From Devosia sp. SD17-2 (GTDB lineage Bacteria > Pseudomonadota > Alphaproteobacteria > Rhizobiales > Devosiaceae), in the NCBI RefSeq assembly GCF_029201565.1, contig NZ_CP104002.1, positions 699,001-763,000 on the forward strand: 64,000 nt of DNA. Direction: 5' to 3'. Below, piece after piece: positions 6,233 through 13,800 of the stretch. The translations under genes were made by a program, and so were the position numbers. The stretch's first letter is position 1, and every line of letters starts with the position of its first letter. The notes under the pieces were generated by a model. It was not told the DNA's origin. It saw only the letters and a list, made by a program, of their open reading frames with translations, and ran no database searches.

Positions 6233-9200
6233 ATGGCCCGCGCTTATCCTCATTCGGATTATGCTGACACGCCCCGTAAAGCCAATGGCGGGGAGTGGCA
6301 GGCATTGCGTGGCGAATTGGTCGCCCTGCTCGATCAGGTTGAAAGCCGTTTCGCCCGTCCGGCGGGCGATGAAAGTGCCCTTGGCGGATTGTCGCAGCGG
6401 GTTCGATATCTCCGCGGTCAGGTCGAGGCGCCCGAACCGGCGCTGCGCCGCCGCGAAGCCTTGCGCACGGTCAAGCGCGCTGTCGATCGGTTCAGCCCGC
6501 GCGACGACCGGCACGATGACGATGACGACGCACTGACCTCGGCCATCGCCGAAATCCGCAGCCGTCAGGGCGCAGCATCCATTTCCGCGCTCGATCGCCG
6601 CCCGTCCGAGACCCCAGAGTTCCGCGAATTGAGCGGCCTTGTCCATGGCATCAGCGACCGGCTGGGACGGCTTGAAGGCGATCTGCGCCAGCAGCGCGGC
6701 AATTCCACCCAGGTGATGGAAGTCGCCAGCCAGGTCGAGCAGCTGACCCAGGTGGTCGAGCTTCTCGCCGGGGCCGTTGGTGAAACCGGCCAGGTCAAGC
6801 GCCTCGAAGCCCAGATTGCCGGGCTCGGCGCGATGATCGAAAAGGGTGCCCAGGTCGATCTGGGCGCGATCAATGCGCGCCTCGACGATGTGTCCGCCAC
6901 GGTGGGCAAGCTTGCCGAATTGCAGGCCCAGCAGATGGAGCGCGAGATTGTCCGCCAGGAGCGCGACGACGCCGCGCCCAAGGGCAAGGGCGTGGCCAAG
7001 CTCGAGCCTGTCATGCACGCCATCGAAGACAGCGTGCGCAGCGTTTATGACCGCATCGACGCCATCGAAAAGAGCCTGGCGCTGTCCTCGGGCGATTTCG
7101 AGCGGCTGACCAGTGAAATGGCCGCCTTCACCCAGGCAATGAAGGATCAGACCGGTTCGCCCGATATTCTGGTCGACCGGGTAGAAGCCCTCGTCGCGCG
7201 CATGGACGGCGTCGATAGCGGCAATGGCGATGTGCTGGCGCTGAAGGACGAGATCGTCGGTCTGCAGCAGGCCGTGCTGCAGGGCATGGAGCCCCGCTTC
7301 GTCCGCATCGAGAGCAGGATCGAGGCGCTCAGCGATCGCATGGCGCCGGTCGATACCAGTGCTGTCGAAGGCCAGCTCAAGCAGCTGATGTCGCGCATGG
7401 ACGAGGCAGGCGAACAGCTCGATGGGCTCGCGCGGCTCTATCATGACGCCAGCGAACGCTCCGACTTCGAATCGCTGGCCACCATGGTGGCCGAGCGCAC
7501 CAGCGATGCCGTGACGCGCAAGGCGCCGGCACCGGTCGCGATGTTTGGACCGGAGAGCCTCAAGAGCATCGAAGACCGCATTTCGACGCTCGTCCGTTCG
7601 GTCAACAAGCAGCCCGATATCGAGACACTCGCCGATATCGTCGCCGAAAAGACCTCCCTCGCCGTCGCCCAGGCGCGCGGTCCGGCCAGCGGCATGGACG
7701 GCACCAGCATGGATGCGCTGGAAAAGCGCATGACGGCCCTGCTCAACACTGCAGGCCGGGACACGGCCGAGCGGCTGACGCGGCTTGAAGCCGCTCTCGC
7801 CTCGCGCGCAGCTCCGGCTGCAACTCCGACAGCACCCGCCGCTGCCATGGCTGCTCCCATCGTTGCGCGGGAAGAGGTCGAACCGTTCCAGATGCCGCAG
7901 GACGATGGCCTGCGCCTCGATAATATCCTGTCGCGCCTGTCGAGTGGCCCCAGCGACGCCATGCCGGACAATCCGGCAGAAGAAGCGCCGCTGATCGACA
8001 AGGGTTTCAAGGATATTCCTGCGCGCCCCGCTGTTGTGTCGGCGCCGGTCGCACGGAATATACCGGCCGAGAAGAAGCCCGAAGAGCCCGGGCGCATGCA
8101 GTTTGATCCCAATCTGGTCGAGCGCCCGCCACGCCCGCAATCGAGCTTTGCGCTCAGTGAAAAAGAGCCTTTTGCCCCGGCAATGGCTGCAGCGGCCGCG
8201 CCCGCCGTGGAAACACCGGTCAGCAATACCAGCACTTTCGTTGCCGCTGCCCGTCGTGCCCAGCGCGCCCGCCAGGAGCAGACTGTCGTCGATACCCCTG
8301 CCAGCTCGCTGATCAGCAGGGCGCTCGCCCGCGTGCGTCCGGCCGCCAAGACCGAAGCGCAGGATGAGCTGGCACCCGTCGCAGAGGCGCCGGTCGAAAA
8401 GCCCGCTGCGCTAAAGAAGTCTCGGCGCGCGCCAATCATCGCTGCGGATGAGCCGATGGCGGACACGACGGCCGAAGACGACATCGAAGCTATCGACGCG
8501 GGCCAGCCCGGGTTCCTGCAGCGTCACCGCCGGCCACTCCTGCTCGCCGCGGCGCTTGTTGCCGTGTCGCTCCTGACATTGAACCTCGTGCTCCAGCGCA
8601 CCGTGGGCCAGCGTAGCGCGACGATGCCTGTGGCAGAAGCGGCGCCCGAAGCGGTCGCGCCGGTCAATCCCGCACCCTCGGACGACCAGTCGCTGGTTGC
8701 GCCGCGCATCATCGACATGATCGATGCCACCACGGTCGGCTCGATCAATCCGGCGCCCGCCAGTTTCTCCAGGGACCCGATTGCGCCGCCCATGCCGGCA
8801 CTGTTGTCGGCTCCGAGCGCCGAGGAACGCCTCGCGCTGGCGTCGACAGGTTTGACCGCCGAGCCCGTCGCGGAAGCGGTCGTCGCAAGCTTTGATCTTC
8901 CCGCCGAAGGCGTGGGGCCGCTGGAATTGCGAGAGGCTGCGGCCGGTGGCGATCCTCGCGCCCAGTTCGAAGTGGCTGCCATCTTCACCGAAGGCCGCGC
9001 AGTGCCCCAGGACCTCGAAGAGGCCGCACGCTGGTACGAGCGTTCCGCAGCGCAGGGTTTTGCGCCCGCCCAATACCGTCTGGGCAATCTCTTTGAGGCC
9101 GGCACCGGTGTCGAGAAGGACCTCGAAAAGGCGCGGCTCTGGTATCAGCGCGCTGCTGAAGCGGGCAACCGCATGGCCATGCACAATCTTGCCGCGCTCT

Positions 9201-9745
9201 ACGCCGGTGGGCTTCTTGGCGAGCAGCAGTTCGAAGCGGCGGCGCAGTGGTTCTCCGAAGCGGCAGCCTTCGGCATGACCGACAGCCAGTTCAACCTAGG
9301 CATGCTCTATGCCCGCGGCCTCGGGGTCGATCAGGATTTCGAGCAGTCCTACAAATGGTTCTCGCTTGCAGCAATGAGCGGCGATAAGGACGCTGCCCAG
9401 GCGCGGGACGACATTGCCAAGTCGCTGACCGCCGAAGCCGTGAGCCGCCTGGGCAATGAGATTTCTGCCTGGACGATCAAGCCCGTGGCGCTGGACGTCA
9501 ATTTCGCCCCGATCGGGACCTGGATGGCCGAGTTCAACCCGGGCGATGCCATTGTCGCTCCGGATGTGACGACGCGTGTGCAGCAGGCCCTCAACAAGCT
9601 CGGCTTTGACGTTGGCAAGCCGGACGGCGTTGCCGGGCGCAAGACCGCCGAAGCCATCCGCGCCTTCGAGCGTGGCACAGGCATGACCGAGAGCGGCGTG
9701 ATCAACCCGCGCCTCCTCGCCGTACTGGGCAGCCAGCCGGTCTGA
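6233..9745 (+). CDS. podJ: PodJ-like polar localization protein (coiled coil - membrane segment - Sel1 repeats - peptidoglycan-binding domain)
   Basis: A 1170-residue protein with the layout of Caulobacter PodJ. A cytoplasmic half rich in Glu, Arg and Leu heptads predicts long coiled coils (about 30-520). An Ala/Pro-rich linker (about 520-760) follows, then one membrane segment (LLLAAALVAVSLLTLNLVL, about 767-786). The periplasmic part has Sel1/TPR-like repeats (about 898-1060, with GDPRAQFEVA, FAPAQYRLGNLFEAG and TDSQFNLGMLYARGLG). A C-terminal peptidoglycan-binding domain ends it (RVQQALNKLGFDVG...GVAGRKTAEAIRAFE, about 1110-1168). PodJ organises a new cell pole for pili and other polar structures. 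The Tad pilus locus in this window would be a plausible client. It is followed by a terminator. Confidence 0.8.
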   Translation: MARAYPHSDYADTPRKANGGEWQALRGELVALLDQVESRFARPAGDESALGGLSQRVRYLRGQVEAPEPALRRREALRTVKRAVDRFSPRDDRHDDDDDALTSAIAEIRSRQGAASISALDRRPSETPEFRELSGLVHGISDRLGRLEGDLRQQRGNSTQVMEVASQVEQLTQVVELLAGAVGETGQVKRLEAQIAGLGAMIEKGAQVDLGAINARLDDVSATVGKLAELQAQQMEREIVRQERDDAAPKGKGVAKLEPVMHAIEDSVRSVYDRIDAIEKSLALSSGDFERLTSEMAAFTQAMKDQTGSPDILVDRVEALVARMDGVDSGNGDVLALKDEIVGLQQAVLQGMEPRFVRIESRIEALSDRMAPVDTSAVEGQLKQLMSRMDEAGEQLDGLARLYHDASERSDFESLATMVAERTSDAVTRKAPAPVAMFGPESLKSIEDRISTLVRSVNKQPDIETLADIVAEKTSLAVAQARGPASGMDGTSMDALEKRMTALLNTAGRDTAERLTRLEAALASRAAPAATPTAPAAAMAAPIVAREEVEPFQMPQDDGLRLDNILSRLSSGPSDAMPDNPAEEAPLIDKGFKDIPARPAVVSAPVARNIPAEKKPEEPGRMQFDPNLVERPPRPQSSFALSEKEPFAPAMAAAAAPAVETPVSNTSTFVAAARRAQRARQEQTVVDTPASSLISRALARVRPAAKTEAQDELAPVAEAPVEKPAALKKSRRAPIIAADEPMADTTAEDDIEAIDAGQPGFLQRHRRPLLLAAALVAVSLLTLNLVLQRTVGQRSATMPVAEAAPEAVAPVNPAPSDDQSLVAPRIIDMIDATTVGSINPAPASFSRDPIAPPMPALLSAPSAEERLALASTGLTAEPVAEAVVASFDLPAEGVGPLELREAAAGGDPRAQFEVAAIFTEGRAVPQDLEEAARWYERSAAQGFAPAQYRLGNLFEAGTGVEKDLEKARLWYQRAAEAGNRMAMHNLAALYAGGLLGEQQFEAAAQWFSEAAAFGMTDSQFNLGMLYARGLGVDQDFEQSYKWFSLAAMSGDKDAAQARDDIAKSLTAEAVSRLGNEISAWTIKPVALDVNFAPIGTWMAEFNPGDAIVAPDVTTRVQQALNKLGFDVGKPDGVAGRKTAEAIRAFERGTGMTESGVINPRLLAVLGSQPV

Positions 9746-9856: not shown

Positions 9857-11398
9857 CTAAAAGCCGCCGCCGGTCTTGAAGCCGGTGTGCTTTCGCGTGC
9901 CGGAGCTGCCGGTGCGGGGGCGGGAGAAGCCGCCGCCGCTATTGCCGGAGCTGCCGCCCCAGCCGCCACCAAAGCCGCCGGAGGGCTTGCTCTTGCGCGA
10001 AGAGCCGCCGCCAAAGCTGCTGTCTGGCCAGGGGAAAGTGCTGGCGCCACCGTCGGCCCAGGGGGAGGCCTTGGAGGGGCGGCGCGAGCCGGTATTGGCG
10101 CTCTGGCTGCCGCCGACGGCCCAATCCTGGCTGCGACGCCAGTGATCCCAGTAGCTGGACGCAGAAATGCCGCCGCGCAGGAAATCATTGAGCAGATCAC
10201 CCACGAGCTTGTCTTCGCGGAAACTCGAGCGGGGATCGTCGAACCGCTGCTTCTTGAATTCCCACTGGATGTCTTCGAGCTCGCGACGGCGGGCGGCGAG
10301 GATTTTCAGGCGATCACGCTGCTCGCGGGTCTCACCGTCTTCCTCGCGCATGCGCGCCCGGGCCTCGTCGATCTGGGCGATGATCGTGTCATCCTGGCTG
10401 GTGCGGGTGCGGCGCGCCTCGGCAAGGAGGGTCTTGAGGTCCTCCCGCTCGAGGGCGGCGGCCAGTTCTGTGGTGGCGGTATGGAAAGCCGGGTCGCGCC
10501 CTTCGGCGAGATCCTGCAGAGCCTGAGCAGCGGCGTCCCGACGGTCCTCGATGGTGACGATCCCGGCGTCGACCTGTTCAATGTCGGCCTGGATGCGGGT
10601 GATCTCGTCGCGCAGCGGCTTGCCGCCGGCCTCGTCCACAGCAGTCTCGCGCCAGGTTTCGAGCCGGGCTTCGGCGGCCTGAGCGTTCTCTTCCTGGCGC
10701 TCGGCATGTTCGCGCAGGCGCAGGGGCAGTTCGTTGAGCATGGCATAGTTCGGCCGCGCCTTGTGGTAGTCCACGAGGCGCGCAACCATGCCGTCAAAGA
10801 AGCGGACGAGATTATTGGCGCGATAGCTGGAGGTGCCGTAGCCGGCGTCCCACAGATACATGAACAGCGGATCGTCGCGGTAGGGCTTGCCCTTCTGTTC
10901 GCGATCAGTCTCGGCCATCTCGGTCTTGCGGATGGACTGCTCGGCAATCTCGCCCATTTCTTCGGCGGTGCGGCGCAGGGCCAGATATTCGGGATCGGCC
11001 TGAAGACGGGCGCTCTGCTGGCTGTCCAGCGCCTTGAGGGCTTCCTGTCGCTCGGTCAGGCGCGTGAGGGCGCTATTGCGCTGTTCGACGAGGCTGGTGC
11101 GTTCCGCTTCCAGTTCGGCGATGGCGCGCTCGGCCTTCTCGACGTTTTTGGCGTGACCCTTGAGCGTTTCACGCGCCCGCAGCTCGGCCGAGGACAGGCT
11201 ACCGTCCAGCTCGGGCTGCACCGACGGGTCGAGTTTGAGCCGGGCGAGCTGACGGAACAGTTCCGCCTCGCTTTCCTTGATCTTGGCGATGCGTTCGGAC
11301 GAGCGCGCCAGGCGCTTGGAAATCTCGTCTTCCTCACGGCGAATGTCGCGCATGGCCTCTTCGAGACTGGCTAGGGCTTCTGGACCACGAAGTGTCAT
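9857..11398 (-). CDS. Coiled-coil protein with Gly/Ser-rich C-terminal tail, function unknown
   Basis: A 513-residue protein I cannot assign. Residues 1-145 and about 235-400 are strongly charged with heptad spacing and should be coiled coil. Between them is a compact segment (DPEYLALRRTAEEMGEI...MYLWDAGYGTSSYRANNLVRFFDGMVARLVDYHKARPNYAMLNELPLRL). A second conserved-looking block is FREDKLVGDLLNDFLRGG, about 410-430. The last 80 residues are Gly/Ser/Lys/Arg-rich with repeated GGG and W. There is no signal peptide or membrane segment. It is the third gene of an operon, four bases after the DUF6384 gene. The Gly-rich basic tail may bind a membrane, a nucleic acid or a partner; this is a guess. 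Confidence 0.75.
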   Translation of the reverse strand: MTLRGPEALASLEEAMRDIRREEDEISKRLARSSERIAKIKESEAELFRQLARLKLDPSVQPELDGSLSSAELRARETLKGHAKNVEKAERAIAELEAERTSLVEQRNSALTRLTERQEALKALDSQQSARLQADPEYLALRRTAEEMGEIAEQSIRKTEMAETDREQKGKPYRDDPLFMYLWDAGYGTSSYRANNLVRFFDGMVARLVDYHKARPNYAMLNELPLRLREHAERQEENAQAAEARLETWRETAVDEAGGKPLRDEITRIQADIEQVDAGIVTIEDRRDAAAQALQDLAEGRDPAFHTATTELAAALEREDLKTLLAEARRTRTSQDDTIIAQIDEARARMREEDGETREQRDRLKILAARRRELEDIQWEFKKQRFDDPRSSFREDKLVGDLLNDFLRGGISASSYWDHWRRSQDWAVGGSQSANTGSRRPSKASPWADGGASTFPWPDSSFGGGSSRKSKPSGGFGGGWGGSSGNSGGGFSRPRTGSSGTRKHTGFKTGGGF

Positions 11399-11402
11399 TG
11401 CA

Positions 11403-12341
11403 TCACCACTCAGTCACCGCGCCGCCCAAGACCGGCATCAAATATTCAATGTCAAGAAAACCATCCGATTTGCGGCCGACTTCATTGGCCTGGATGATGC
11501 CATCGTCCCGCTTGTCAGCGGCAACGGCGTTGTAGACCTCTTCAGGTACACGCACGCCCCAGATCGGCACGATCTCGGTCTTGTCCGTCTCCTCATTGAG
11601 GATCGGCAGTGACAGCACATCCCCGTCCGGCGAAATGGCCTCGACGACGATGTAGTAATTGGTGGCGGCGGTGTTGATCTCGGGGAACGACCAGAAGCCG
11701 GACTGGACGTCCGGGCGATTGACCACGCGCAGCACATATTCCTGGCGGAGCTGATCGCGCAGGGCGGTCAGGCTCTCGACGGCACTGACGGCGCCTTCGC
11801 GATTGCCTTCGGCGGCGAAGGCCTTGCCGCGGCTCACCAGGGCATCGGCCTGCACCACGGCCTGCTGAACCTTGGTTTCTTCAAAGATTGTCTCGCGCAG
11901 CGCATCCATCTGGGCCGGCAGGCCTTCGGTCAGTTCGAGCCGGGCCTGCGCTGCCTGACCGGCCGTATAAGGCTGCCAGACGCCGAAATAGCCCACGCCC
12001 AGCGCGAGCAGGGCAACGACCGCGGCGATGACGGGCTTGCCCCAGCGCTTGCGACCGACATAGAGCCGAGCCAGGGACGTGCCCAGGCCCGGCGCAGGCG
12101 GAGCATAGGAGAACCGGCTTTCGGCCAGAGCCGAAACGCCCTCCTTGAGGATATGGTCAGGAACCTCGATACCCTGTTGGTGATAGATGTCCCGCAAACG
12201 ATTGATCAGCTGGGCCTCACGGGCCGCGCCGTCGAGTTCGCGGATCACCAGGTCCTGCCGGTGACGGAGCGTGTCGACCACGTCCATCGCCAGCATGACT
12301 TCATCGAGGGGAGCAGCGGGCTTTGCCGTCGCGTCACTCAT
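11403..12341 (-). CDS. DUF6384-type single-pass membrane protein
   Basis: A 312-residue protein with a cytoplasmic N-terminal helical region (about 1-115, including VDTLRHRQDLVIREL and RLRDIYHQQGIEVPDHILKEG) and one membrane segment (VIAAVVALLALGVGYFGVW, about 121-139). A probably periplasmic domain of mixed structure follows (about 140-312), including a helical hairpin and a region around FWSFPEINTAATNYYIVVEAI. I recognise it as DUF6384-like; no biochemical function is known to me. It is the middle gene of the operon, 33 bases after the TelA-like gene and 4 bases before the Gly-rich coiled-coil gene, so it could anchor the two soluble coiled-coil proteins to the membrane. Confidence 0.75.
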   Translation of the reverse strand: MSDATAKPAAPLDEVMLAMDVVDTLRHRQDLVIRELDGAAREAQLINRLRDIYHQQGIEVPDHILKEGVSALAESRFSYAPPAPGLGTSLARLYVGRKRWGKPVIAAVVALLALGVGYFGVWQPYTAGQAAQARLELTEGLPAQMDALRETIFEETKVQQAVVQADALVSRGKAFAAEGNREGAVSAVESLTALRDQLRQEYVLRVVNRPDVQSGFWSFPEINTAATNYYIVVEAISPDGDVLSLPILNEETDKTEIVPIWGVRVPEEVYNAVAADKRDDGIIQANEVGRKSDGFLDIEYLMPVLGGAVTEW

Positions 12342-12374
12342 CCTGCGCCATTATCCTCTTGGATAGTCGTGGTC

Positions 12375-13592
12375 TCAGTTACGGGTTTCGAGCAGAAGCG
12401 CATTGCCTTCGGCGGCAAGCGTTGCCAGGCGCCGCTTGCCGTCTTCGACCGCGTCACGGATCTCAGCCGAGTTCTTGGTCGAGGCGACACGCATCTCGTT
12501 GATGATGGTGCGGCTCTTCTCCTGGAAGTTCACCACCGAATCCACGAGCTTCTTGACGGCGTCGGCGCGCACGGTTGGGCCGTAGCCGGCCTTAACGGCC
12601 TCTTCCTGCACCTTGTCGCCGATCTCCGAAAGCGCCTCGAGGCTCTTGGACATGCCTTCCTTCATGGCGTTCAGGGTCTGGGTCGATTCATGCAGGCCGA
12701 ACATGCCGGTGAAGGACGCCGAAAGGGCGGTCAGCACGGTTTCATTGGTCGAGAAGAACGAGATCGACTGCTGGTAGACGCGCTCCTTGGCATTGGTCGT
12801 CTGCATCAGACGAGCCATCACCACCTCGGAGGTGTTGTAGGAAATGGTCAGATTGTCCGAGAGGTCCTTGGCGATCTGGTAGCGCTTTTCCTCGTTCTGC
12901 ATCTCACGCAGGCGCTCGTCGCGGGCCATTTCGAGGCGGGCTCGATCGGCCGGAACCTCGCCGGCATAGGCAGCCAGCTCGTCGGCGGATTTCTGCAGGA
13001 TGTTCTTCTTTTCGCCGAGGCGACCTTCGGCCGTGTGGAGCACTTCGAGCGCCATCACTTCGGCCTGCTTGAGAGCGCCGCGGAAGTCGCGATAGGCCTC
13101 GAGGATGGTCTGCTCGCGATCGATCTGGTCCTTGGTGTCCTTGGTGACGTCCAGATAAACGTCGCGGATCTTGTTGAAGCGGGTGGCGATGTCGCCGCGG
13201 CTGACCTTCATCCAGACGTTGGACACGCGCTCGACGAGGTCGAGCTTATTGTCCTCGAGCTGGTCGACCATCATTTTCGCGTCGTCGCGAATCGAGTCGA
13301 AGCCCTTGGTGATCTCTTCGTAGCGCTCGCCGATCTTCATGGCGGCGACCTGTTCGCGCACCACTTCGTTGAAGGCCGAGGCTTGGCTGAGGGTGCGGCC
13401 AATCAGGATCACGCGGGTTTCGTCGAGCTCGGTGATCTGACTGAGAAGACCGGTGATCGGCTGCTCGCCCTGGTTTTCCGGCCAGATGCCGAGATCCCGA
13501 ATGGCGTTAACCGCCTTGTCCAGATACTGGAGGGGCCGTTCGGCGATTGCCGAAGTGGGTGAAGCGGTAGCAGTGGTCACTTGATCGGTCAT
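12375..13592 (-). CDS. TelA-like coiled-coil protein heading the unknown operon
   Basis: A 405-residue, almost wholly helical, cytoplasmic-looking protein. Helical blocks include LVERVSNVWMKVSRGDIATR, EQTILEAYRDFRGALKQAEVMAL and RLREMQNEEKRYQIAKDLSDN. The order and spacing of helices, with a central long hairpin and a run near residues 270-330, remind me of TelA/YaaN toxic-anion resistance proteins. The identity is low and the match is inferred. The start at 13592 has a clear GGGAGCG ribosome site; the longer open frame upstream lacks one. It is followed by the DUF6384 and coiled-coil genes in the same orientation. Confidence 0.72.
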   Translation of the reverse strand: MTDQVTTATASPTSAIAERPLQYLDKAVNAIRDLGIWPENQGEQPITGLLSQITELDETRVILIGRTLSQASAFNEVVREQVAAMKIGERYEEITKGFDSIRDDAKMMVDQLEDNKLDLVERVSNVWMKVSRGDIATRFNKIRDVYLDVTKDTKDQIDREQTILEAYRDFRGALKQAEVMALEVLHTAEGRLGEKKNILQKSADELAAYAGEVPADRARLEMARDERLREMQNEEKRYQIAKDLSDNLTISYNTSEVVMARLMQTTNAKERVYQQSISFFSTNETVLTALSASFTGMFGLHESTQTLNAMKEGMSKSLEALSEIGDKVQEEAVKAGYGPTVRADAVKKLVDSVVNFQEKSRTIINEMRVASTKNSAEIRDAVEDGKRRLATLAAEGNALLLETRN

Positions 13593-13800
13593 TGATCGCT
13601 CCCTGAGAGTACGGACCTTATGGGCAGCAGCGCCTGTTAGCCCTAGATTGCTGTTGCCGTACGCGCTGACAATTGCGCCAGCGACTTTCGGCAACTATTT
13701 AGTCCATATTGGTGCGAAAAAGCCGCAGGTAAAGAGCGCCACGTAAACATGCGATAGACCGTTGTTTTTTCGCATCATATCTAAGGTCGAGGAGAGCCGG

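Follow-up and report, generated by a model that had tools for sequence, protein, structure and literature searches.

The A-B-C locus of Devosia

The locus studied here is a run of three genes, named A, B and C, in Devosia sp. SD17-2. It lies in a stretch of 64,000 nucleotides of contig NZ_CP104002.1 (positions 699,001 to 763,000), which is called the window below and numbered from its first letter. All three genes are on the minus strand. Gene A (12375..13592) encodes 405 amino acids, gene B (11403..12341) encodes 312 and gene C (9857..11398) encodes 513; the gaps are 33 bases between A and B and 4 bases between B and C. In an alignment of 43 sequences, those of the window and of 42 further loci that are mostly from Devosia, a GGGAG element in front of the ATG at 13592 is conserved in at least 90%, so this ATG is favoured as the start of A over an upstream TTG.

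A sequence-only reading of the window had described these genes as tightly spaced, encoding an all-helical soluble protein, a DUF6384 single-pass membrane protein and a coiled coil with a basic Gly/Ser/Trp tail, and each of these descriptions was borne out. Protein A, the most conserved of the three, has no hydrophobic stretch (maximal KD19 0.82 in the window and 0.65–1.38 across the 84 loci described below), and its AlphaFold2 model is almost wholly helical, with a long hairpin formed by residues 135–207 and 214–282. Protein C has no hydrophobic stretch either (maximal KD19 0.45).

Protein B is a clear member of DUF6384 (PF19911; E-value 1.7e-136, 454.8 bits at a cut-off of 25) and is 100% identical to B of a Devosia metagenome-assembled genome (contig L013). 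It contains one hydrophobic stretch (KD19 2.29 at residue 104), which places the transmembrane segment at about residues 104–122. In 78 of 84 loci the 15 residues before this segment contain more lysine and arginine than the 15 that follow it (1 locus shows the reverse and 5 have equal numbers), and from this bias B is probably oriented with its N-terminus inside and a helical plus beta domain in the periplasm. In its predicted model, a helical N-terminal domain is followed by the transmembrane segment, a bundle of helices and, at the C-terminus, a beta domain, which is well modelled (mean predicted local distance difference test (pLDDT) 79, predicted template modelling score (pTM) 0.55). Fold searches with B mostly aligned its three-helix bundle (residues about 130–201) with small bundles, while the beta domain alone found no match among the 50 matches listed, which does not make its fold new. 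By sequence, the solved relatives of B are only designed-protein and coiled-coil matches (E 0.022 or worse).

Protein C is a coiled coil, in the middle of which a segment (DPLFxYL) is conserved. Its C-terminal tail (residues 420–513; 9857..10141 on the minus strand, stop codon included) has a pI of 12; these last 94 residues contain 25 G, 19 S, 5 W, 13 K/R and 3 D/E, and end in GFKTGGGF. The last residue is F in 77 of 84 loci, and the pattern F-x-[TS]-x-x-x-F fits 75 of 84; L041 and L068, two of those that it does not fit, carry broken copies. The ending FKTGGGF, shared by 56 loci, is spelt by as many as 30 distinct 21-mers, indicating that selection acts on the peptide and not on the DNA. The single occurrence of the tail pattern in the genome is C itself. 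Solved relatives of C by sequence are again only designed-protein and coiled-coil matches, up to 1.1e-6 for a designed helical protein, and its match to SMC reaches just 18 bits at a cut-off of 567.

A and C match no Pfam or NCBIfam family above the curated cut-offs, and none of their matches to PHROG or PADLOC families has an E-value better than 0.03. In databases A is named “cell surface protein”, and some of its relatives “merozoite surface protein 3b”, a name that we found tied to Pseudomonas nowhere in the literature searched. DUF6384 is an uncharacterised family, with nothing known that could be transferred to B. The earlier view of the locus as an undescribed system holds within the literature searched, which covers few subscription papers and has no mention of DUF6384 or PF19911.

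Conservation and spread of the three genes

A one-genome-per-species scan with B gave 147 relatives, 80 of which were kept and read. Another 9 loci were found via A (8 of 11 plasmid records and one phage), leading to 89 loci in total. Since the loci were picked by B in genome contigs or by A in plasmids and the phage, co-occurrence is informative only for the other two genes in each case.

Profile matches to all of A, B and C are found in 84 of 89 loci. Four of the five misses (L024, L051, L065 and L091) are explained by contigs that break off inside C or shortly after B, with a partial C in L024, L065 and L091; the fifth is the phage locus L099, whose C was recovered by other profiles. By the coordinates of the open reading frames, the order is A, B, C on one strand in 83 of 84 loci; in the remaining one, L075, tblastn gives this order too, and the frame of B is interrupted. 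The neighbourhood survey thus upholds the view of the three genes as a single conserved unit. Frames of A, B or C that are interrupted or partial occur in L075, L041 and L068, owing to assembly error or decay. Moreover, all 8 further loci from seven genomes carry A-B-C, and one of these genomes, the alphaproteobacterial G418, contains two complete operons (L145 and L146).

The distances between loci measured with the three genes are closely correlated (r = 0.94 for A and B, 0.91 for A and C, and 0.97 for B and C; 81 of the 84 loci, leaving out L041, L068 and L075 with their broken or partial genes). Between the window and Desulfofustis, identity is 69% for A, 46% for B and 31% for C. Conservation of this degree, together with one end peptide written by so many different 21-mers, is far beyond chance.

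Neighbouring genes are common to 54–59 loci. Outside the Devosiaceae relatives and Microvirga, no recurrent fourth gene was found in the 15 distant loci listed, whose neighbours were partly family-scanned; downstream of C, no gene recurs in more than 9 of these loci. Because the distant neighbours differ, except within Microvirga, the unit appears to consist of exactly three genes.

The module is seen in Alpha- and Gammaproteobacteria, in Desulfofustis, on Pseudomonas megaplasmids and in the Yersinia jumbo phage phiR1-37. B is present in 25 of 25 searched genomes of the genus of the window (24 others and the source genome). In an evenly sampled set of 299 genomes of the phylum, B was found in 2 and A in the same 2, and in a class sample of 385 genomes two matches exceeded the cut-off and a third was weak. 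A occurs on 11 plasmid records, and all 8 that were fetched have B and C adjoining it; five of these 8 are Pseudomonas plasmids of 335–972 kb.

Some neighbours of the plasmid copies were also recorded. On the Pseudomonas megaplasmids pMPPla107 and pBASL58, a StiP cysteine protease gene lies upstream of A-B-C (L106:4576-5643; L102:4468-5538), with a PELOTA domain in L106, and so does a peptidyl-tRNA hydrolase-like gene. A dCTP deaminase gene lies downstream on both, and also on FeN3W. The copy on the PA83 plasmid (L098) has a type IV CRISPR csf2 gene about 5 kb away (L098:16782-17104).

In a collection of 50,697 phage records, A was found in one phage only (two records of it), phiR1-37. Its gene g190 is A (376 bits) and g191 is B (PF19911, 4.7e-26, 92.1 bits); the two plasmid B proteins scanned match PF19911 as well. 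The third gene, g192, is C, with an hhalign probability of 98.1% over 393 columns. A profile of 37 chromosomal C proteins missed it, but two profiles made from more varied C proteins, 11 in one and 5 in the other, matched it with 35.9 and 30.2 bits. As controls, the nine other phage proteins longer than 250 amino acids reached at most 0.9%, while reversed g192 reached 50.6% within 25 columns that cover the Gly/Ser tail, which shows that composition contributes to the score between g192 and C. Two scans of viral contigs returned only the record of phiR1-37 itself, and other contigs encode two proteins (P0241 and P0242) that match g190 over the full length, at 93% and 87% identity. The main text of two papers on phiR1-37 (PMC4848604, PMC13030884) does not mention g190–g192. 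In one midpoint-rooted FastTree tree of 34 A sequences, the phage copy groups with the Pseudomonas megaplasmid copies, and Desulfofustis stands beside the gammaproteobacterial Thiodiazotropha, pointing to transfer between phyla.

Comparison with TelA and a proposed role

A Foldseek search of BFVD with the model of A gave 663 matches, five of them at E<=0.001. Three of these five are named TelA or tellurite resistance (E 1.4e-5 to 1.1e-4, probability 1.00, best template modelling (TM) scores 0.51/0.56) and two are unnamed, and the first match with another name has an E-value of 2.5e-3. This is moderate evidence that A has a TelA-like predicted fold. By sequence, no solved relative was found for A alone, and its profile gave three chance-level matches (E 0.4 or worse); no solved structure of a TelA protein was found by sequence search either.

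The likeness to TelA (PF05816) goes somewhat further than the predicted fold and the lack of a hydrophobic stretch. In 2 of the 6 TelA loci with scanned flanks (L113 and L114; Alphaproteobacteria), TelA lies between XpaC (PF10112) and DUF2927, and an SPFH/Band7 gene comes next after DUF2927 in L113, the one of the two scanned that far. Like TelA with XpaC, A shares its operon with a membrane protein, and like the XpaC-TelA-DUF2927-SPFH run, A-B-C is a small gene group joining a helical protein with membrane-associated proteins. However, the partners of A are DUF6384 and C, and no gene is common to the two groups by sequence: B and C have no match to PF10112 at E<=1. KlaB of RK2 is TelA, and KlaABC of RK2 is a further three-gene parallel. 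We know of no established mechanism for TelA-type proteins.

Published data link TelA-type proteins to the cell envelope. In Listeria, a mutant of lmo1967 (TelA) is 4-fold more sensitive to nisin and 2-fold more sensitive to tellurite (PMC12791056); in Lactococcus overproducing membrane proteins, XpaC-like and telA1 transcripts rise (PMC3139573); and xpaC-yaaN of Bacillus belongs to the core sigma-W genes (PMC3498285). The PspA-YdjGHI system of Bacillus subtilis is alike in logic, in that YdjI and the membrane proteins YdjG/H bring PspA, a soluble helical protein, to the membrane (PMC8581546). Unlike in that system, A, B and C match none of its families in Pfam at E<=1, and for A this includes PspA itself. 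The ESCRT-III fold is absent among the 50 matches listed for A, which does not exclude it.

From the above, A-B-C probably makes a scaffold of helical proteins attached to the inner membrane. More specifically, and with somewhat less than even confidence, we propose that it is a TelA-like, membrane-tethered scaffold acting on the surface of the inner membrane when the envelope is stressed, a role transferred from TelA. A would be the core, a long helical protein that probably self-assembles, as suggested by its very high conservation along the whole length and by the lack of a recognised enzyme domain. B would fix A to the inner membrane as anchor and sensor; its N-terminal helical domain would face the cytosol, and its periplasmic helical and beta domain may read the state of the envelope or hold a periplasmic partner. 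C would serve as a coiled-coil adaptor whose end peptide, F-x-[TS]-x-x-x-F, may dock on A or on the cytosolic domain of B. In this proposal we infer the formation of a complex, the partner of the tail, the self-assembly of A and the link to envelope stress, and assign the scaffold, anchor and adaptor roles by analogy.

A number of observations weigh against this proposal. The model of A is of medium confidence (pLDDT 68, pTM 0.60; residues 293–336 below 50), and its similarity to the three TelA models spans TM scores of 0.29–0.56 with root-mean-square deviations of 10.9–16.8. In the Foldseek search of the PDB, none of 800 matches of A reached E<=0.001. The N-terminal domain of B, the proposed binding site for A or C, has a low-confidence model, with pLDDT averaging 39–67 per block over residues 1–70. 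A, B or C was found within about 1.5 kb of TelA in none of 24 TelA loci examined. TelA's own setting also varies, since in the other 4 of the 6 loci the one flanking gene scanned encodes a solute-binding/VWA protein (2 loci), gives a weak DUF2016 match or matches nothing. In hhalign comparisons with five proteins in the XpaC position (two, in L113 and L114, confirmed as PF10112), B reached 0.5% and C 0.2%. No phenotype or expression data were found for any homologue of A, B or C. The candidate promoter described below would look like a housekeeping rather than a stress-type promoter.

Identity of A with TelA by sequence was ruled out. PF05816 does not match A in Pfam at E<=1, and a TelA profile found nothing in the Devosia genome at E<=0.001. 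In profile-profile alignments with 20 and 24 TelA proteins, hhalign gave A probabilities of 2.3% and 2.2% (6.3% for the N-terminal halves alone), and global mode brought no improvement. The scores of 26.2–26.5 exceed the maxima of 40 and 100 column shuffles (20.8 and 23.7) and those of reversed profiles (14.3–17.4). Protein C is a different coiled coil, yet it reaches 29.9 and 25.0 against TelA; because C scores alike, the score of A is counted as no evidence. The TelA-like character that the sequence-only reading had given to A therefore stands for the predicted fold and fails for sequence homology. Its interpretation as a whole is supported in part, with the three genes as one conserved unit and the membrane-associated scaffold or stress complex as a putative one.

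Upstream region, alternatives and meaning

Upstream of A, conserved stretches include TTGTCA-N17-AATCTA (13643..13676, minus strand), a possible sigma70-type promoter of the operon. Further upstream, the 43-bp intergenic block CTTTACnTGCGGCTTTTTCGCACCAATATGGnCTAAATAGTtG (13692..13734, minus strand) is nearly invariant in the 43 aligned sequences, mostly Devosia, and contains an inverted repeat (GTGCG/CGCAC) in its commonest form. With up to 3 mismatches allowed, its first 30 bases occur nowhere else in the genome, so no regulon was found. The block may serve either A or the divergent CoxG gene. On the other side, the convergent neighbour (6233-9745) encodes 1170 amino acids with Sel1 repeats and a peptidoglycan-binding domain, and presumably resembles a polar organiser of the PodJ type.

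Two alternatives to the stress scaffold deserve discussion, both of which we consider unlikely. In the first, A-B-C is a device for conflict between mobile elements or against phages, which guards the membrane or shuts out competitors and is for this reason found on megaplasmids and in a jumbo phage. Its presence as a complete set on the fetched plasmids and as g190–g192 in phiR1-37 fits this explanation, as does its patchiness outside the genus in the phylum and class samples. However, its universal presence in the searched Devosia genomes and the neighbours common to many loci suit a housekeeping or stress role better. Moreover, A is confined to one phage in the large collection, no defence gene was seen among the neighbours, which were only partly family-scanned, and none of 8 proteins scanned has a convincing PADLOC match (best E 0.052).

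In the second alternative, A-B-C is a constitutive structural scaffold, for example of a cell pole or an envelope zone, and not a stress system. The strong conservation of A and the universality in the genus agree with it, as would the sigma70-like elements and the putative polar organiser next to C, while patchiness elsewhere, carriage by plasmids and a phage, and the lack of a gene recurring downstream of C in more than 9 of the 15 distant loci listed speak against it.

A bolder version of the stress scaffold, which we regard as rather improbable, is that A-B-C is a portable membrane guard. The TelA fold would then have a second branch, too distant for sequence comparison to reveal, that comes with a transmembrane sensor of its own and a tail-triggered adaptor. 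The guard would be chromosomal in bacteria, while on megaplasmids and jumbo phages it would hold the inner membrane of the host together, or close it to rivals, during takeover. The F-x-[TS]-x-x-x-F end would act as a switch by which C places A on B where there is damage.

That A is a ClyA-type helical pore-former under the control of B and C is very improbable. ClyA-type tripartite helical toxins come from three-gene operons, and A may share an elongated helical bundle with them, given a weak fold match, but A lacks a hydrophobic tongue in all 84 loci, B carries a DUF6384 domain and C, a coiled coil, matches no family. Chance synteny of three functionally unrelated genes in Devosia can be dismissed with near certainty, being contradicted by loci on unrelated replicons, from other phyla and of a phage that all keep the order A-B-C.

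In summary, the A-B-C operon is a real and under-described finding, best read as a TelA-type membrane module rather than something categorically new, and its spread to megaplasmids and a jumbo phage is surprising. TelA-type proteins recur in several envelope-stress regulons, and A-B-C gives a compact and separate set of partners. With a receptor-like membrane protein and an adaptor carrying a short, strongly conserved end peptide, the role of the TelA fold at the membrane would become testable in three genes. Mobile elements may benefit from A-B-C as well, as its presence in a jumbo phage and on Pseudomonas megaplasmids suggests.

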